A stretch of 58,019 bases of DNA from Candidatus Saccharimonadota bacterium. GTDB lineage: Bacteria > Patescibacteriota > Saccharimonadia > Saccharimonadales > Saccharimonadaceae. Position numbers and translations under genes: made by a program. Shown one piece after another: positions 46,679 to 57,743 of this stretch (position 1 is its first letter; the number at the start of each line of letters is the position of its first letter). Under the pieces are notes generated by a model. It worked only from the letters and a program-made list of their open reading frames with translations. It searched no databases and was not told the DNA's origin. The stretch covers positions 131,983-190,001 of the forward strand of contig JAFWBV010000005.1 of the NCBI GenBank assembly GCA_017506895.1, in the 5' to 3' direction.

Positions 46679-46742
46679 TCTAGAACTCCTATCTGCCCAC
46701 CAAATTCTTAAATTAATAACACCACCCCTAATGTTCATATTC

Positions 46743-46824
46743 TCAATGGGTCCTGCCGGACCTTCTCCCTTCCCAAAATTGTTTTACAATTTTGGGAGCC
46801 CTTTCCAGGTCCGTCACCCATTGA
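46743..46824 (-). promoter_or_regulatory. Large hairpin in the KGG-gene leader
   Basis: TCAATGGGT (46816-46824, read leftward) pairs with ACCCATTGA (46743-46751); inside are GGACC/GGTCC and CCCAAAATTG/CAATTTTGGG around TAAAA. The 3' side has GGGAAGGGAG, so CTCCC can choose between two partners, a possible switch. It does not match a riboswitch I know. It lies about 65 bases before the KGG start. Confidence 0.65.
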
Positions 46825-46850
46825 TGTATGATAATAGAGTGAATATCTTC

Positions 46851-46879
46851 ATTATAGCATAGTGCTTAGGGTTTGTCAA
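46851..46879 (-). promoter_or_regulatory. Perfect consensus promoter of the KGG gene
   Basis: On the minus strand TTGACA (46879-46874), 17 bases, TATAAT (46856-46851). Confidence 0.88.
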
Positions 46880-46968
46880 TATGCTAATTCTAAAAAAGAT
46901 GTTGTAATATTTATTAAAAACCCGAACAATTTAATATGAAGTTTTGCACAAAATGTGGAAAAAGCCTA

Positions 46969-46997
46969 TTGACATTATGCATTTTATGAGATAAAAT
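46969..46997 (+). promoter_or_regulatory. Promoter of the small RNA
   Basis: TTGACA (46969-46974), 17 bases, TAAAAT (46992-46997). Confidence 0.85.
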
Positions 46998-47003
46998 AGG
47001 GGT

Positions 47004-47090
47004 AGTTTTAAGTAGATTAAACTGCGAGGCTACTTAAAATACATGTATGACCTTGGAATCGTTCAGAGATGGACGATTCCGCTTTTTTTA
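47004..47090 (+). ncRNA. Candidate small RNA, about 87 nt
   Basis: Starts after a near-consensus promoter and ends in an intrinsic terminator (GGAATCGT 47055-47062, ACGATTCC 47073-47080, seven T). A second hairpin TTTTAAGTAG/CTACTTAAAA fills the 5' half. There is no credible ORF. The ABC transporter behind it has its own -10 box, so this may be an independent sRNA or an attenuated leader of the transporter. Confidence 0.7.
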
Positions 47091-49461: not shown

Positions 49462-49538
49462 TGGTGGGGATATGTGGACTTGAACCACAGACCTCGTCAT
49501 TATCAGTGACGCGCTCTAACCAGCTGAGCTATATCCCC
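49462..49538 (-). tRNA. tRNA-Ile(GAU)
   Basis: Acceptor GGGGATA/TATCCCC; anticodon loop CTGATAA; T arm GTGG-TTCAAGT-CCAC; CCA encoded. It abuts tRNA-Ala with no spacer. Confidence 0.96.
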
Positions 49539-49615
49539 TGGTGGAGTAACAGGGACTCAAACCCTGGACCTCTGCCTTGCAAAGGCAGCGCTCTAATCAA
49601 CTGAGCTATTACCCC
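49539..49615 (-). tRNA. tRNA-Ala(UGC)
   Basis: Anticodon loop TTTGCAA; acceptor GGGGTAA pairs with TTACTCC, giving the G3-U70 wobble that identifies tRNA-Ala; CCA encoded. Its CCA is followed directly by the first base of tRNA-Ile. The pair is normally in the 16S-23S spacer but here stands alone. Confidence 0.96.
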
Positions 49616-51543: not shown

Positions 51544-51562
51544 AGGCTGAATATAGTGCATT

Positions 51563-52129
51563 AAAAATCCCCCGGTATATTACCGGGGGAAATCGCTTCC
51601 CCACTAGGGCAACATTACGTCTGCCCAGACTTACGCGAGGGATTTCTCCCTTCTGGATATTCCTGGATCTTATTCTCTTCACCAGGATCGCGCTCGTTTA
51701 GATTTTTCCACTCACCTTCATTATTTCTAGGCAGGAAAACATCTACAAAACTCCTCCTCAACCTGCACTCGCTGCTTATAAGCCTTCTTCCCAGCGCGTC
51801 CGCCGAGAAGTAAGTGACTTACCTCGGCGCGTCCGCCAAGATAATCACTTCTTGGCTCTTTCGCTCCACGAGTACCAGTGCTCCTAATGCACTGGTCTAA
51901 TGCAGGTTTCCGCATGTGATACTGCCGCGGAAAGCAGGTCAATGTGTGTCCCTATCCCATTTTCCTGGATAGGCTTCGACCCCTCATTTCCTGGGTCCCT
52001 GCTGCAACGACGCCATCTCCGGCATCGTCTCCCATGGCAGGCCTCGGCACACTTATCTGGCTCATGACTGGAGCCCTCAAAACAAACGTTTCGGAGCGGG
52101 GCTTTAGACCCCGCCTCCCCCGAAGATGA
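51563..52129 (-). ncRNA. Hairpin-dense RNA region, about 565 nt
   Basis: A GC-richer stretch without a credible gene, ended on the minus strand by TCCCCCGGTA-TAT-TACCGGGGGA and a T run (51563-51590). At least nine local stems: GCGGGG/CCCCGC (52096-52114), GACGCC-type (52009-52029), CCTATCC/GGATAGG (51951-51973), TTTCCGC/GCGGAAA (51907-51933), ACCAGTGC/GCACTGGT (51874-51896), CCAAGA/TCTTGG (51836-51855), TCCTGG/CCAGGA (51661-51687), AGGGA/TCCCT (51638-51651), GGGCA/TGCCC (51607-51626). GCGCGTCCGCC is repeated 33 bp apart. It shows no RNase P, tmRNA or SRP signature. It follows a phage-type gene, as do the large ornate RNAs GOLLD and ROOL. Confidence 0.65.
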
Positions 52130-52432
52130 TTAATAAGAAGAGATGCGATCACAAACCTGGATCACTTCTTCTTCCGTAAGGTCTGACCATACACAGTCAT
52201 ACCCTTCATCATCTTCCCAGAGTATATCGTCCTTTAAGAGGGCGACCTCCCATCTATTGCTGCCTTCCGGCCATGCAATAATGGAAGCACCATATCCGTT
52301 AGGATAGGCAACTCTGACACGGTAGTTTTGGCTCCACCCTTCAGTACGGTGGTGAAAGCTCTGTTTGAACTCAACAGAGCTAAAGCCAATCCTAGCAAGC
52401 GTGTTAAGGGAAAGAAAAGGAAAGTAAGTCAT
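52130..52432 (-). CDS. Small phage-type protein
   Basis: 100 aa from ATG 52432 (GGAAAGG eight bases upstream); the frame is open to 52507, which would add 25 residues. YRVRVAYPNGYGASIIAWPE, WEVALLKDDI and SDLTEEEVIQVCDRI resemble small proteins common in actinobacteriophages, with the pattern NGYGASV...WEVAVL...LTEEEV. The function is unknown. It shares promoter and leader sequence with the gene at 54744. The structured RNA lies right behind its stop, probably on the same transcript. Confidence 0.65.
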   Translation of the reverse strand: MTYFPFLSLNTLARIGFSSVEFKQSFHHRTEGWSQNYRVRVAYPNGYGASIIAWPEGSNRWEVALLKDDILWEDDEGYDCVWSDLTEEEVIQVCDRISSY

Positions 52433-52596
52433 GTTGATGACCTTTCCAACCGCGACCTTCACCCCGAGGGGCTTATAGTCCATGTTGACGGCACCCATTC
52501 TCCCCATCTTAAGGAGGTGGGCGGAACCTCAAAGGGCCCTTTTCAAATCTATCTTTCCGCGTGATATTTCACGCTCCATCTTTCTTTTAAATTCCT

Positions 52597-52654
52597 AGCT
52601 CACACTTCTCTGCGAACTTGGTACTATTATATAATAAATCCAAAGAAAAGTAAA
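52597..52654 (-). promoter_or_regulatory. Promoter and leader motif, copy A
   Basis: TTTACT (52654-52649), 17-base spacer, TATAAT (52631-52626), followed in the RNA by AAGTTC...AGTGTG. The same -35, spacing, -10 and leader motif occur at 55030-55088. Between here and the CDS is a further 165 bases with no gene. Confidence 0.7.
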
Positions 52655-52731
52655 TATTATGTTAATAAATGACCGATTAACAGAGATATAAAATGCCATA
52701 ATTTGTAAATATTGTTTTTACAAAGTGGTTT

Positions 52732-53820
52732 TTAGCTAAGAATTTTTTTAATTCTATCCTTTAATAGTTGCAATTTCTCTTGACTATCAATGATTGCTCC
52801 TTGAGAGAATATCCCAAATTGTCCATCTAATTCTATTGGCTCTTCAAGTGGCGTGAATTCTAGAAAAGCCGTGTTTTTTGCTTGACCTCTCCTACTGGTA
52901 GATAAGGTAATATGTGGAATCTCTAGCGCATCACAGGCTTCTTGGACTTCTAGGCTATCTGCTTCAACTTTAACTAATAGTCCTTCGTTTTCGCCATCGT
53001 TGCCATAGCCAATAGCGTATATTTTCGCATTGCTACCAATCTGGGCTAGATGTAATTGATCAGAATCAGGTTTAAAAGCCGTAGTAACATGTGGGTGTTC
53101 AATAGGCTTTTCTAAAGTTGCTTGCCTTCTTGAATACAATTCTTCAGGACTAATAAATAAGCCAGCATAAACAGTTCTCTGTCGGACTAACTCCGCTTCT
53201 TTGGCAGGTTCAGACATGAATTCATAGGCCTTAGTTTTCTCCCAGTCAATTAGTTCATCATCATAAATTAGGGCATGAGTTTTCCAAAAATCTTCACATT
53301 CTTTACGGTCTTCTTCTGAGGTTAAATTTGGATCCCACGGTTCCCTTGGTGAACCTTCCCCAACATAACTTGTTAGGGTTTCGTAGACATCTCTGTCTCG
53401 GATAGAACGGTCTTTTCTTAATACAATCGTCACAGAATCACACGGAGAAGCTTCGCGATTCTTTACTAATGGAGTTGGACCACTTCTGCCTTTCCGGTAA
53501 GCCATTATAATTTCGTCTTCTGGCCCTACTTCGACACAGGTCTTACCGCCGATGATGCGGTCGAAGCGAACTAGCTCTTTAATAAAAGGCCTGCCATTCG
53601 CTTCAATTGTAGCTAGAGCCTCTCCTAACAGCTCTGGAGTTAAGCCGCCTTCGCTATGAAAATGACTGTCTGACCTATCATACACCTCGGCCCCATCTTT
53701 GGTTCTACCAAAAAATAGCCTTTCGTGCTCGTGGTTTTCTTGCGTTAGTTGCGTATCTATACTGCGTTCGGCTATCTCTTTATTCATGTTTTCTTTTGAA
53801 GCTAGGTTAGATTTTTCCAT
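52732..53820 (-). CDS. Two-domain protein with a 2H phosphoesterase signature
   Basis: 362 aa. The C-terminal part has two H-x-T motifs, HVTTAF at 244 and HITLST at 303, spaced as in 2H phosphoesterases, which act on RNA 2'-3' cyclic phosphates or 2'-5' bonds. The N-terminal part (about 80-200) carries VEVGPEDEIIMAYRKGR, TPLVKNREASPCDSVTIVL, EPWDPN and FWKTHALIYD. I associate such a pattern with small BECR-type RNase-like domains, but this is uncertain. It starts directly at the stop of the TrmB-like regulator, so the two form an operon. Confidence 0.6.
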   Translation of the reverse strand: MEKSNLASKENMNKEIAERSIDTQLTQENHEHERLFFGRTKDGAEVYDRSDSHFHSEGGLTPELLGEALATIEANGRPFIKELVRFDRIIGGKTCVEVGPEDEIIMAYRKGRSGPTPLVKNREASPCDSVTIVLRKDRSIRDRDVYETLTSYVGEGSPREPWDPNLTSEEDRKECEDFWKTHALIYDDELIDWEKTKAYEFMSEPAKEAELVRQRTVYAGLFISPEELYSRRQATLEKPIEHPHVTTAFKPDSDQLHLAQIGSNAKIYAIGYGNDGENEGLLVKVEADSLEVQEACDALEIPHITLSTSRRGQAKNTAFLEFTPLEEPIELDGQFGIFSQGAIIDSQEKLQLLKDRIKKILS

Positions 53821-54609
53821 TCAATACTCCTGCATAAAGAATTTCTTGTAATACTCTATCATTATTTTAAGAATTTGCCTTATTGCTTCAGCGATAGCAG
53901 GACTAGTAATAATCGTTGCCATTTGAGTTTCGCCATACGCCACAAGCGCAACCTTGTCACCGTAAACCTGTATTTCGGTGGGTGCGGAATAAGCGTCTCG
54001 CGGCATCCATACTCGTTCAAAATTCCAGGCATTGTCGCCACCGGCCTTGACGTGTTTAATTGGGTTTGGCGCTGCAGGTGTAAGTGCATATATATGCATA
54101 CCAAGTATCGCTCTTTGTTTGCGATAATCATCTAGGAATTCAGCTAGCTCTTTATCTTTCCCCCATATTTTTTCATCTGCTTCAGTTCGTAAGAAATAGA
54201 CATCTTTTTTGGTTCTAAGGATATCAAGGTAGACTTCTTTGATTCCTTCTATCCCTTCCAATGTTCTAGCCCCTGGCATTTCGTTGTTGGCGTAAAAGAT
54301 ATCCAATAACGATGAAAGGTTGTCTTTGACGAACTTTTCGTTTTTGGCGACGATTTTACGGCGTTTTTCAGCGAGAATTTCTAGATTTGCAGGATTAAGT
54401 ACACGGTAAGTACTCTTTTTATCGTTGGTTTGTTCTATTAAGCCAAGTTCGACGAGTTTTTTTGCTATCATGTAGCAATTCTCGCGAGATTGATTTGTAT
54501 TTTTGGCGAGTTCCATGGGGGTCATGGCGCCGTTTCTTAATAGACAATCATAGACAGAGGATTGGGCTTCGGATAAGCCTGCTTTTTTAAGAATATCAAT
54601 TTCTTCCAT
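53821..54609 (-). CDS. TrmB-like transcriptional regulator
   Basis: 262 aa from ATG 54609. An N-terminal winged helix (LSEAQSSVYDCLLRNGAMTP, then MELAKNTNQSRENCYMIAKK) is followed by a TrmB-type effector domain with a YFLRTEADEKIW strand and ITSPAIAEAIRQILKIM. TrmB proteins are mostly archaeal sugar-responsive repressors. No ribosome site precedes this ATG; instead a 20-codon ORF with a strong site overlaps it (54596-54658). It likely controls the downstream two-domain gene. Confidence 0.8.
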   Translation of the reverse strand: MEEIDILKKAGLSEAQSSVYDCLLRNGAMTPMELAKNTNQSRENCYMIAKKLVELGLIEQTNDKKSTYRVLNPANLEILAEKRRKIVAKNEKFVKDNLSSLLDIFYANNEMPGARTLEGIEGIKEVYLDILRTKKDVYFLRTEADEKIWGKDKELAEFLDDYRKQRAILGMHIYALTPAAPNPIKHVKAGGDNAWNFERVWMPRDAYSAPTEIQVYGDKVALVAYGETQMATIITSPAIAEAIRQILKIMIEYYKKFFMQEY

Positions 54610-54658
54610 GGTTGTTTTCCCAAGTTGACATTTTCTTTTTTTCAATATTTTTGGTCAT
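54596..54658 (-). CDS. 20-codon leader ORF overlapping the TrmB start
   Basis: ATG 54658 has AAGGAGATAGAT before it and a TATAAT 30 bases upstream. The peptide is MTKNIEKKKMSTWENNHGRN, ending at TGA inside the TrmB gene, in another frame. It contains an A7 run; a one-base slip there would fuse it to the TrmB frame. It is either a coupling leader peptide or the displaced true N-terminus. Confidence 0.55.
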   Translation of the reverse strand: MTKNIEKKKMSTWENNHGRN

Positions 54659-55029: not shown

Positions 55030-55088
55030 CGAGTCCACACTTTCTCGGAACTTAATGCTATTATATCATTTATTTGACAAATAGTAAA
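55030..55088 (-). promoter_or_regulatory. Promoter and leader motif, copy B
   Basis: TTTACT (55088-55083), 17-base spacer, TATAAT (55065-55060), then AAGTTC...AGTGTGGACT in the leader. It is parallel to the copy at 52597-52654. Confidence 0.7.
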
Positions 55089-55445: not shown

Positions 55446-57743
55446 CTAGACGTTTGCGCCGTGACGGCGGAGAACGTCTCGATATTTGGCGATTTCTTCT
55501 GGGCGTATTTCAGAGACAAGCTGGTCAATATCAGCACCGTGAGAGATGAGAGTGCTTAGGTTTTTGATGATATCGTCTGGAAACAAATTAGAAACGAGAT
55601 CGTCGATATTGGCGCCATGAGATATTAGAGCGTCTAGGTTTTTGATAGTGTCGGCTGAGGACAGGCTAATAATAATGTCATCGATGTTAGCGCCGTATGA
55701 AATGAGGGTGTCTAGGTTATTGGCTATACCAGCTGAAGACATATTGGAAACAATATCGTCAACATTGGCGCCGTGAGAGATAATGGCTTCCAGTAGATTT
55801 TTAGTGGCGCCAATTTGGGATAGATTAGAAACGATATCATCAATATCAAGGCCATGAGAGATGAGGGTGTCTAGATTTTTAGCGATATCAGAAGGGTGTA
55901 GTTGCTCTAAAACGAGTTGTTTAATGTTTATCTTGGCACCGTGAGAAATGAGAGTGTCTAGATTATTAGCGATATCAGAAGGGTGTAGTTTAAAAATGAG
56001 GAGTTTAATGTCGGCGCCGTGTGACATGAGAGTATCTAGGTTGTAGATTATATCAATGGGATGCAACTTAGAGACGAGAGCATCGATATCGATATTGGCG
56101 TCGTGGGAAATGAGAGTATCTAGGTTGAACATTAAATCATCGGGGCTTAGTTTGGAGACGAGAGTATCAATATTGATATCGGCACCGTGTGAAATGAGGA
56201 GATCTAGATTAACTGCTCTGTCGAAAGGCTTTAGCTCAGAGACAAGAGTATTGATGTTAGCGCCGTGTGAAATGAGGAGATCTAGATTATGAACTATGTC
56301 CCAAGGGCTCATACTAGAAACAAAGCTGTTAATACTTATACCAGCGTCGAGGGCATAATCAAAGTCATACTTTTGTTTTAATTCGTGAATACGTGGATCA
56401 CAATTGTTGTAAGTGTCCAAGGTCTGGATGGGACGATGTATTTCATAGAGGAATTCTAGTTCTTCTTTGGTTAAGTCTTCGCCCTTTTGCATCTTGCGAT
56501 CTAGCGCTATGAGCATGTTTTTATCAGTAAATGCTTCAAGGAACTTTTCGCCACCTGGGAGGGATTTGACTTTTTCTTCTACGATAGGCACAAGAGAATC
56601 GTCCAGAGCTTGGCCTTCTTTTAAACCAGAGATTTCCGCCACATTTCCATCTGGGTCTAATCTGATTGAAGCGCAGGCGTTTTTGGATAGTTTGCCAGTC
56701 TTTTCGTCTATTAAATGAAATAGAATAAACTTTGACCGGTTTTGTCGGCTGTTGTTATCATTTTCGTAGTCTTCATCATAGTTATCATAGTCGTCGTAAT
56801 CTTCATTGCCATCGTCACCGTAAGTCCCATATTCTAAGTAATGCCTGCCAACTGATGATGAAGCTACACACCAACCAGTACCTTTGGCGGCTCTTGCAAT
56901 GTCATCTTCGTCTCCCAATTGATATTCTATCCATTCACCATGAGCATCTTCGGTTTTTTCTGGAGGTTCTAGAATTGGAGCTATGTCTTGCTGAATAGCA
57001 TTGAATACCTTGGGGAAACTACCTGAGCTAACAATTTGTTCAAGTTTGATATTTCTTTCACCTTCATCTGTATAAAACTGTTTTTCATTGTTGCCGTAAT
57101 AACGATTAATCACATCAAAAACGCCAGCTAGGACTTCGGCATCTGGGTCAGGGTATGGCGCAATGGTAGTTTCATTTCTGGTTTCGTATTTCCCTTTTCC
57201 TTTGTTATATCTACCCATTTTAGTCATGCCATCCCAGGCATAAACTTTGAACCAGAGTGGGTAGGGTGAGTGTTCATCGCCTAGATAGTTAGCCCATTTT
57301 TCTAGAGATTCTTTTTGCAATTCGCGTTCTTTCTCGTAGATTTCATGTTTGTATTCCTCGGTCAGTTCATAATTACCGTAACCATTGTCGCGTAGCTCTT
57401 GTTTTTTGGCGTTCCAGTACGATTCGGGGATATTATCGTACGCTATAAGGAGATCATCTCTAATGGATGCCTGCCAGAGTCTTTGCTCTGCTTTATTGCC
57501 GTGTTTTTCTATTAGCTTATTAAGACGATTTAAATAACTAAGATTGCGGCGTTCGCCATTCTTGCCTGGGAGTTTTTCGCCATGTTTGATAGCTTTATTG
57601 AAACTAGATTCCACGATAGGTTGGTGACTAGATTCAAAATGGATTTGGGAAAGGACTTTTGCGCCGAGCTGTTGATCTTGTGCTCTTTCGTCGGTTTCTT
57701 GATAATCTAGTGTTTCTGGGATTCGTTCGTTATTGCTCGGCAT
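55446..57743 (-). CDS. 765-aa protein with ankyrin-like 30-residue repeats
   Basis: No signal peptide. The N-terminal 220 residues are helical and charged. Residues about 290-400 hold a globular part with KGTGWCVASSSVGRHYLEYG, FILFHLIDEKTGKL and IRLDPDGNVAEISG, reminding me of PcfJ-like or phage GxxWC domains; an Asp/Tyr/Asn low-complexity stretch interrupts it. The C-terminus is about 12 repeats of ~30 residues with core LISHGANIDDLVSNL, similar to ankyrin. AAGGA is eight bases before the ATG, TATAAT about 32 bases. Such repeat proteins are often host-interaction effectors. It lies exactly between two copies of the 16S tail. Confidence 0.75.
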   Translation of the reverse strand: MPSNNERIPETLDYQETDERAQDQQLGAKVLSQIHFESSHQPIVESSFNKAIKHGEKLPGKNGERRNLSYLNRLNKLIEKHGNKAEQRLWQASIRDDLLIAYDNIPESYWNAKKQELRDNGYGNYELTEEYKHEIYEKERELQKESLEKWANYLGDEHSPYPLWFKVYAWDGMTKMGRYNKGKGKYETRNETTIAPYPDPDAEVLAGVFDVINRYYGNNEKQFYTDEGERNIKLEQIVSSGSFPKVFNAIQQDIAPILEPPEKTEDAHGEWIEYQLGDEDDIARAAKGTGWCVASSSVGRHYLEYGTYGDDGNEDYDDYDNYDEDYENDNNSRQNRSKFILFHLIDEKTGKLSKNACASIRLDPDGNVAEISGLKEGQALDDSLVPIVEEKVKSLPGGEKFLEAFTDKNMLIALDRKMQKGEDLTKEELEFLYEIHRPIQTLDTYNNCDPRIHELKQKYDFDYALDAGISINSFVSSMSPWDIVHNLDLLISHGANINTLVSELKPFDRAVNLDLLISHGADINIDTLVSKLSPDDLMFNLDTLISHDANIDIDALVSKLHPIDIIYNLDTLMSHGADIKLLIFKLHPSDIANNLDTLISHGAKINIKQLVLEQLHPSDIAKNLDTLISHGLDIDDIVSNLSQIGATKNLLEAIISHGANVDDIVSNMSSAGIANNLDTLISYGANIDDIIISLSSADTIKNLDALISHGANIDDLVSNLFPDDIIKNLSTLISHGADIDQLVSEIRPEEIAKYRDVLRRHGANV

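Follow-up and report, generated by a model that had tools for sequence, protein, structure and literature searches.

The minus strand of positions 51563-52129 in the 58,019-nt stretch of DNA analysed here (the window) encodes a real large structured RNA, referred to below as RNA1. It probably represents a new class of large structured non-coding RNA, which would most likely act in trans as a stable scaffold and be expressed conditionally from a specialised promoter. To our knowledge, bacterial structured RNAs longer than about 400 nt are few outside the core machinery, and their functions are mostly open.

Gene layout and predicted fold of RNA1

The window comes from a genome of 0.71 Mb in 12 contigs (G000). 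The RNA1 gene lies on the minus strand in the order promoter, 100-amino-acid ORF, structured part of about 560 nt (52129-51568) and terminator; all features in this section are on that strand. The −35/−10 promoter (TTTACT-17-TATAAT; 52654-52626), whose extended version in homologues is TTTACTTTTTGTCAA-N9-TATAAT, is preceded by an upstream box, CTCTGTTAATC (52675-52685), about 20 bp ahead of the −35 element. This box was seen directly in the window and in loci L044, L049, L052 and L100; its counterpart in homologous loci is TTTTTACCTCTGTTATT. The position of the −10 box places the predicted transcription start near 52619, followed by a leader of about 187 nt (52433-52619) whose DNA is partly conserved among other loci carrying the same small ORF, termed cl2 (blastn: L045, L047, L051 and L052). 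The cl2 ORF (52130-52432) begins at ATG 52432, with the Shine–Dalgarno sequence GGAAAGG at 52447; this start is preferred over 52507 because an in-frame stop separates the two in the G025 homologue. The structured part begins straight after the end of the ORF at 52130, and the predicted 3′ end is an intrinsic terminator (51590-51568) consisting of a 10-bp stem followed by TTTTT. A convergent MazG gene lies past this terminator, and these two features together rule out a leader or riboswitch of a downstream gene. A GC content of 0.53 at 51563-52129, against 0.40 across the window, is matched by just 0.06% of 567-nt windows. The raised GC content, the terminator and the small ORF ahead of the RNA on the same strand had all been described in the first-pass annotation, and all three are borne out.

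Three domains are predicted for the RNA. The one at the 5′ end is variable, the multibranch core contains a pseudoknot, GNRA-type loops and a tandem pair of hairpins with GGACGC loops, and a 3′ domain completes the fold. The 5′ domain (51941-52129) is deletable as well as variable; it has been removed in G036, and one of its modules is doubled in G025 and in one of the two G235 copies (G235a). Immediately past the ORF stop it contains a hairpin, GCGGGG-UCUAAAG-CCCCGC (52096-52114), that is exclusive to copies with cl2. Further elements are a GGCUCC/GAGCC hairpin (52075-52059), a closing stem of GUGUGCC (52052-52046) with GGGACACAC (approximately 51952-51944), and a pairing of CCUAUCC (51973-51967) with GGGAUAGG (51958-51951).

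The conserved core of 182 nt (51759-51940) is the part described by two covariance models, R1 and R2; the window copy, itself a training sequence, scores 207.7 bits (E 6e-48). Its pseudoknot stem (51922-51937) pairs CUGC (51937-51934) with GCAG (51925-51922) and overlaps helix P1 (51931-51926 with 51914-51909). The conserved loops include GAAA loops, one of them the GNRA-type loop of a near-invariant hairpin, GGAGC-GAAA-GAGCC (51854-51867), and the near-invariant GGACGC loops of the tandem hairpins P6 (51850-51812) and P7 (51810-51787), which together span 51787-51850. A direct repeat, GCGCGTCCGCC(G/A)AGA, occurs at 51794-51808 and 51827-51841; read on the RNA strand, it forms the GGCGGACGCGC loops of these adjacent hairpins. 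The repeated sequence reported earlier is therefore the pair of GGACGC loops seen from the opposite strand.

In the 3′ domain (51591-51758), RNAalifold predicts helices with compensatory pairs: UAGAUGUUUUCC (51745-51734) with GGAAAAAUCUA (51709-51699), GCGCGA (51693-51688) with UCGCG (51638-51634), the hairpin GGGA-GAAA-UCCC (51650-51639), and a CUGGGC/GCCCUAG stem within the same interval. A palindrome, GCUUAUAAGC, was considered as a dimerisation site, but its lack of conservation in G112 and G115 spoke against using it as evidence.

Homologues, covariation and strand

A DNA search recovered RNA1 copies in members of the same genus at 75-100% identity. Of the 174 genomes of the genus, 12 carry the RNA according to the core model R1, as does one genome of a sister genus (G349); R2 returned the same set of genomes and, in addition, a duplicated module in G127. 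Two genomes, G235 and G112, carry two copies apiece. The structured part ranges from about 380 to 565 nt, the compact copy of G349 measuring about 380 nt, and core identity across copies spans 51-97%, a spread that confers power to detect covariation. The copy in G127 (L100:9300-10100) is divergent: its twin-hairpin module is duplicated, as matched by the second model, and its UUUCCUGCC..AGUGGAAA (UUUCC..GGAAA) hairpin is present three times. Homologues with named records all belong to Candidatus Saccharibacteria, mainly from sheep gut and rumen, and RNA1 has been found so far in some gut-dwelling Saccharibacteria alone. Matches to an 18-mer pattern in genome contigs outside Saccharibacteria are due to chance; blastn supports nothing beyond the pattern itself. 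The patchy spread points to an accessory rather than a housekeeping RNA: RNase P, tmRNA, SRP and 6S RNAs were considered and rejected, as genus-wide presence is at odds with 12 of 174 congeners.

Compared with dinucleotide shuffles, 51555-52135 folds far more stably on either strand (minus, z = −7.4; plus, z = −6.9). The model-fitted alignment comprises 14 core sequences, 8 of them sharing 82-97% identity over the core. Standard pairs fill 94.6% of its paired cells, compared with 36-43% when partners are slid by 1-3 columns. Two-sided changes occur in 40 of the 60 core pairs, and none of 500 shuffles attains the observed pairing values. An alignment made with MAFFT only, without fitting to the model, likewise gives 94 RNAalifold pairs, 39 with compensatory changes. 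The pseudoknot (CUGC/CUAC/CUGU with GCAG/GUAG/ACAG) was first spotted by eye and then tested for covariation; three of its four pairs show two-sided changes and 87% of cells are paired, although it is not universal, being broken in the second G112 copy and in G127. Covarying helices read on the minus strand contain 88 G-U cells against 18 A-C cells; this excess, together with the promoter and the terminator, assigns the RNA to the minus strand.

All six frames contain stops in every copy, and the longest open stretch lies in differing frames. The first-pass annotation had proposed a large structured RNA with no credible ORF and had suggested that homologues be examined for covariation of the stems. 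Both proposals hold up: the homologues display covariation, and coding conservation was not found.

Relation to the small ORF, to known RNAs and to alternative readings

RNA1 is associated with cl2 in only part of its range. ORF and RNA share one promoter–terminator unit in the window, G121, G057, G217 and G025. In G349, TTGACT-17-TATAAT stands shortly ahead of the RNA with no ORF between, giving a predicted transcript of about 380 nt; in G151 and the other G235 copy (G235b), the RNA directly follows the promoter. The copy in G127 also has no ORF in front, and G235a and G115 have a different small ORF family ahead of the RNA. Conversely, cl2 family members occur without RNA1 in two genomes, G026 and G123, and on one contig of G057, C9. 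Since several RNA1 copies do without cl2, its protein is not obligatory. The protein has a weak PHROG match (phrog_4074, E 7e-5) and an AF2 model of mean pLDDT 79; fold searches, including the PDB, returned no confident match, only weak structural matches to unnamed phage proteins.

It is conceivable, if rather improbable, that RNA1 is a cis-acting 3′ UTR, with a structure that stabilises or regulates the mRNA of the preceding small ORF and has no separate function. The arrangement in the window and the four similar loci, where the RNA follows the ORF in one apparent unit, would fit this reading. The four copies without an ORF in front and the copies behind unrelated small ORFs argue instead for a probable trans-acting RNA; members of the ORF family are likewise found where RNA1 is missing, and a pseudoknotted structure of 560 nt far exceeds what a stabiliser needs. 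CsrB/RsmY-type sponges titrate the CsrA protein with many GGA loops. A similar role for RNA1, with an RNA-binding regulator captured by its tandem GGACGC hairpins and by the repeats of the UUUCCUGCC..AGUGGAAA hairpin, ranks level with the 3′ UTR and is likewise improbable. Both RNAs have repeated hairpins with GGA in or near the loops; the two loops of RNA1 are near-identical with GGACGC invariant, and in G127 the multiplied hairpins would suit such a role. However, most copies have just two such loops, the first G of GGA sits in a stem, and RNA1 is mostly a complex fold, much of whose conserved sequence has no relation to the loops. Finally, a GC-rich decayed coding or repeat sequence might fold by chance, and both strands do outfold their shuffles. 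Such an artefact has a negligible probability and is refuted by covariation: the changes are compensatory, the G-U pairs are strand-specific and no reading frame is conserved.

It is very unlikely that RNA1 belongs, as a highly diverged member, to one of the known large RNA families (ROOL, GOLLD, OLE, HEARO or raiA). Similar size and ornateness speak for membership, as does the presence in several loci of a tRNA-Ile/tRNA-Ala pair at a distance of 2-6 kb. Against this, none of the 4227 covariance models of Rfam 15 matches the window at its gathering threshold; at E values up to 10 only terminator hairpins and other chance matches appear, and eight homologous loci gave no match at E values up to 1. 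This holds for raiA, HEARO and all remaining Rfam 15 families. The ROOL model found no member in 187 relatives, in a search that scored no positive control, and RNA1 is missing from phage, plasmid and viral collections. The first-pass annotation had named a significant Rfam hit as a refutation, and none was found; of its two alternatives, a new class stands, while a very divergent known RNA finds no Rfam match in the window or the eight loci.

Likeness to ROOL and GOLLD had also been proposed, and does not extend to membership. ROOL (RF03087) is an ornate, pseudoknotted RNA of about 570-660 nt, encoded by phages and prophages, often by tRNA islands and at times near tRNAs, that assembles into a homo-octameric RNA nanocage (PMC12286853). 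RNA1 is likewise large, ornate and pseudoknotted with tRNAs nearby, but gives no model match and lies in a chromosomal island rather than in a phage or prophage near tRNA islands, the only tRNAs being the Ile/Ala pair at 2-6 kb; unlike ROOL, it has one small pseudoknot found so far. GOLLD (RF02032) is often longer than 800 nt, phage-linked and induced during lysis, with a conserved 3′ and a variable 5′ part (PMC12286853). RNA1 shares large size and a variable 5′ domain with it; GOLLD is longer and phage-linked, and RNA1 shows neither a model match nor a phage or prophage location. OLE (RF01071), a large ornate bacterial RNA, forms a dimeric complex (PMC12286853) and has OLE-associated membrane proteins, none of which was seen among the annotated neighbours (annotations only). 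It differs in its hosts, and no covariance-model match supports membership, but as a large and ornate RNA it offers a plausible functional analogy. Among the papers searched, none joined Saccharibacteria with structured RNA and none was relevant to Patescibacteria and non-coding RNA. RNA1 is assigned here to a class of its own, one that falls under the loose heading of large ornate bacterial RNAs and outside the ROOL, GOLLD and OLE families.

For RNA1 as a trans-acting RNA, the following course may be proposed. In G000, a minus-strand transcript of about 1.05 kb comprising the leader, the 100-amino-acid ORF and the structured RNA would end at 51590-51568. Processing would separate RNA1 from the ORF, after which it would act in trans, probably as a scaffold for a ribonucleoprotein or an RNA-only assembly by analogy with OLE, ROOL or GOLLD. 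With a covarying structure without coding, its own promoter and terminator, and occurrence without an ORF, RNA1 can be counted among large structured trans-acting non-coding RNAs, trans action itself being predicted.

Genomic setting, shared promoter and a second RNA

The main-context neighbours of RNA1 are chromosomal: rpsA-like, ABC transporter, TrmH-like methyltransferase, MazG, tRNA-Ile and tRNA-Ala genes (some of these names are our own reading of translations). In the window (49462-49615, minus strand) and at the starts of L045 and L046, the tRNA-Ile/tRNA-Ala pair lies away from rRNA genes. The G057 contig opens with the 3′ end of a 16S rRNA about 800 nt ahead of the RNA, and the layout in G217 is alike. 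RNA1 had no genuine match among the phage, plasmid and IMG/VR collections searched; pattern matches in viral contigs with TATAAGYAGCGRGTGYAG (L053-L056, n = 4) are chance hits in unrelated sequence, as are those with GGAGCGAAAVAGCCAAGAA (n = 3; best model E 3.6). The phage link put forward in the first-pass annotation is weak, given weak PHROG and fold matches, chromosomal neighbours and nothing in these collections.

A 362-amino-acid protein (52732-53820, minus strand) has a match to phrog_23674 and is possibly 2H-phosphoesterase-like, judging by two H-x-T-like motifs read by eye (HPHVTTAF and PHITLSTS). It is 78% identical in G025 and adjoins RNA1 or RNA2 (see below) in several genomes; its AF2 model was unusable. 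Comparison of neighbouring genes with defence systems gave no match apart from HTH and HD domains. Elsewhere in the window, the intergenic segment ahead of the ABC transporter genes (46739-47042; z = −3.5) holds a long perfect hairpin, CUUCCCAAAAUUG..CAAUUUUGGGAG within GGACC..GGUCC, possibly a bidirectional terminator. A 765-amino-acid protein (55446-57743, minus strand) with tandem repeats of about 30 residues (LDTLISHGANIDDLVSNLSP) has no Pfam or NCBIfam match.

In several loci the pattern TTTACTTTTTGTCAA-N9-TATAAT lies ahead of small genes as well as RNA copies, a sharing that was computed directly. Ten sites were found in nine whole genomes searched, within five genomes and all inside these clusters, compared with none for a reversed control pattern; the pattern is absent from four of the nine. 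This rare extended promoter, with the upstream TTTTTACCTCTGTTATT box, occurs at 55088 (minus) in the window and in L044, L047, L049, L052 and L099, in small-ORF/large-RNA clusters only. The site at 55088 is a one-mismatch copy of the 14-mer ahead of an 80-amino-acid ORF. The promoter of RNA1 in the window belongs to the class in a diverged form, G000 having no match within 3 mismatches. Three matches in viral contigs fall in unrelated phage genes and were judged to be at chance level. Expression of RNA1 would be conditional, through a specialised promoter that also serves small accessory genes and, in one relative's genome, RNA2.

RNA2 was found by following this promoter class on contig C9 of G057, where a non-coding unit of about 1.1 kb (L052, 8965-7880, minus strand; z = −8.0) is followed by a TrmB-like regulator gene. 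Relatives with 74-76% identity in G217 and G203 (L119:1470-2570, minus; L120:715-1800, plus) make it conserved in three genomes. Their alignment has two-sided changes in 51 pairs against 2-4 with slid partners, a count that favours itself, as these three sequences also supplied the structure, although the margin is large. RNA2 matches neither Rfam nor the RNA1 covariance models; in size it is closer to GOLLD, also without a model match. These comparisons point to a second, unrelated large structured RNA under the same promoter class.

The TrmB-like HTH regulator (53821-54645, minus strand; PF01978, E 4e-12) is associated with RNA1 and lies outside it. The gene is single-copy, with close homologues (at least 52% identity) in G000, G025, G151, G235, G057, G217, where it has one in-frame stop, and G349. 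It stands beside RNA1 or RNA2 in six of these seven genomes, the exception being G349. This neighbour may regulate RNA1; it is not obligatory, because no homologue was found in the RNA1 carriers G036, G112 and G121. More speculatively, Saccharibacteria might possess a modular system of accessory genes: under probable control by the linked TrmB-like regulator, TTTACTTTTTGTCAA-N9-TATAAT and its upstream CTCTGTTATT box would drive interchangeable cargo, made up of orphan small proteins and of large ornate RNAs from two or more unrelated classes (about 0.4-0.56 kb and 1.1 kb).

The present analysis adds one class of large RNA with strong covariation and points to another. Compact RNA1 variants such as the G349 copy of about 380 nt lend themselves well to structure determination, and the rare promoter, together with the linked single-copy TrmB-like regulator, provides a handle on when these RNAs are made. 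Saccharibacteria are ultra-small and have genomes of about 0.7 Mb, so at least half a kilobase of dispensable RNA represents a notable cost.
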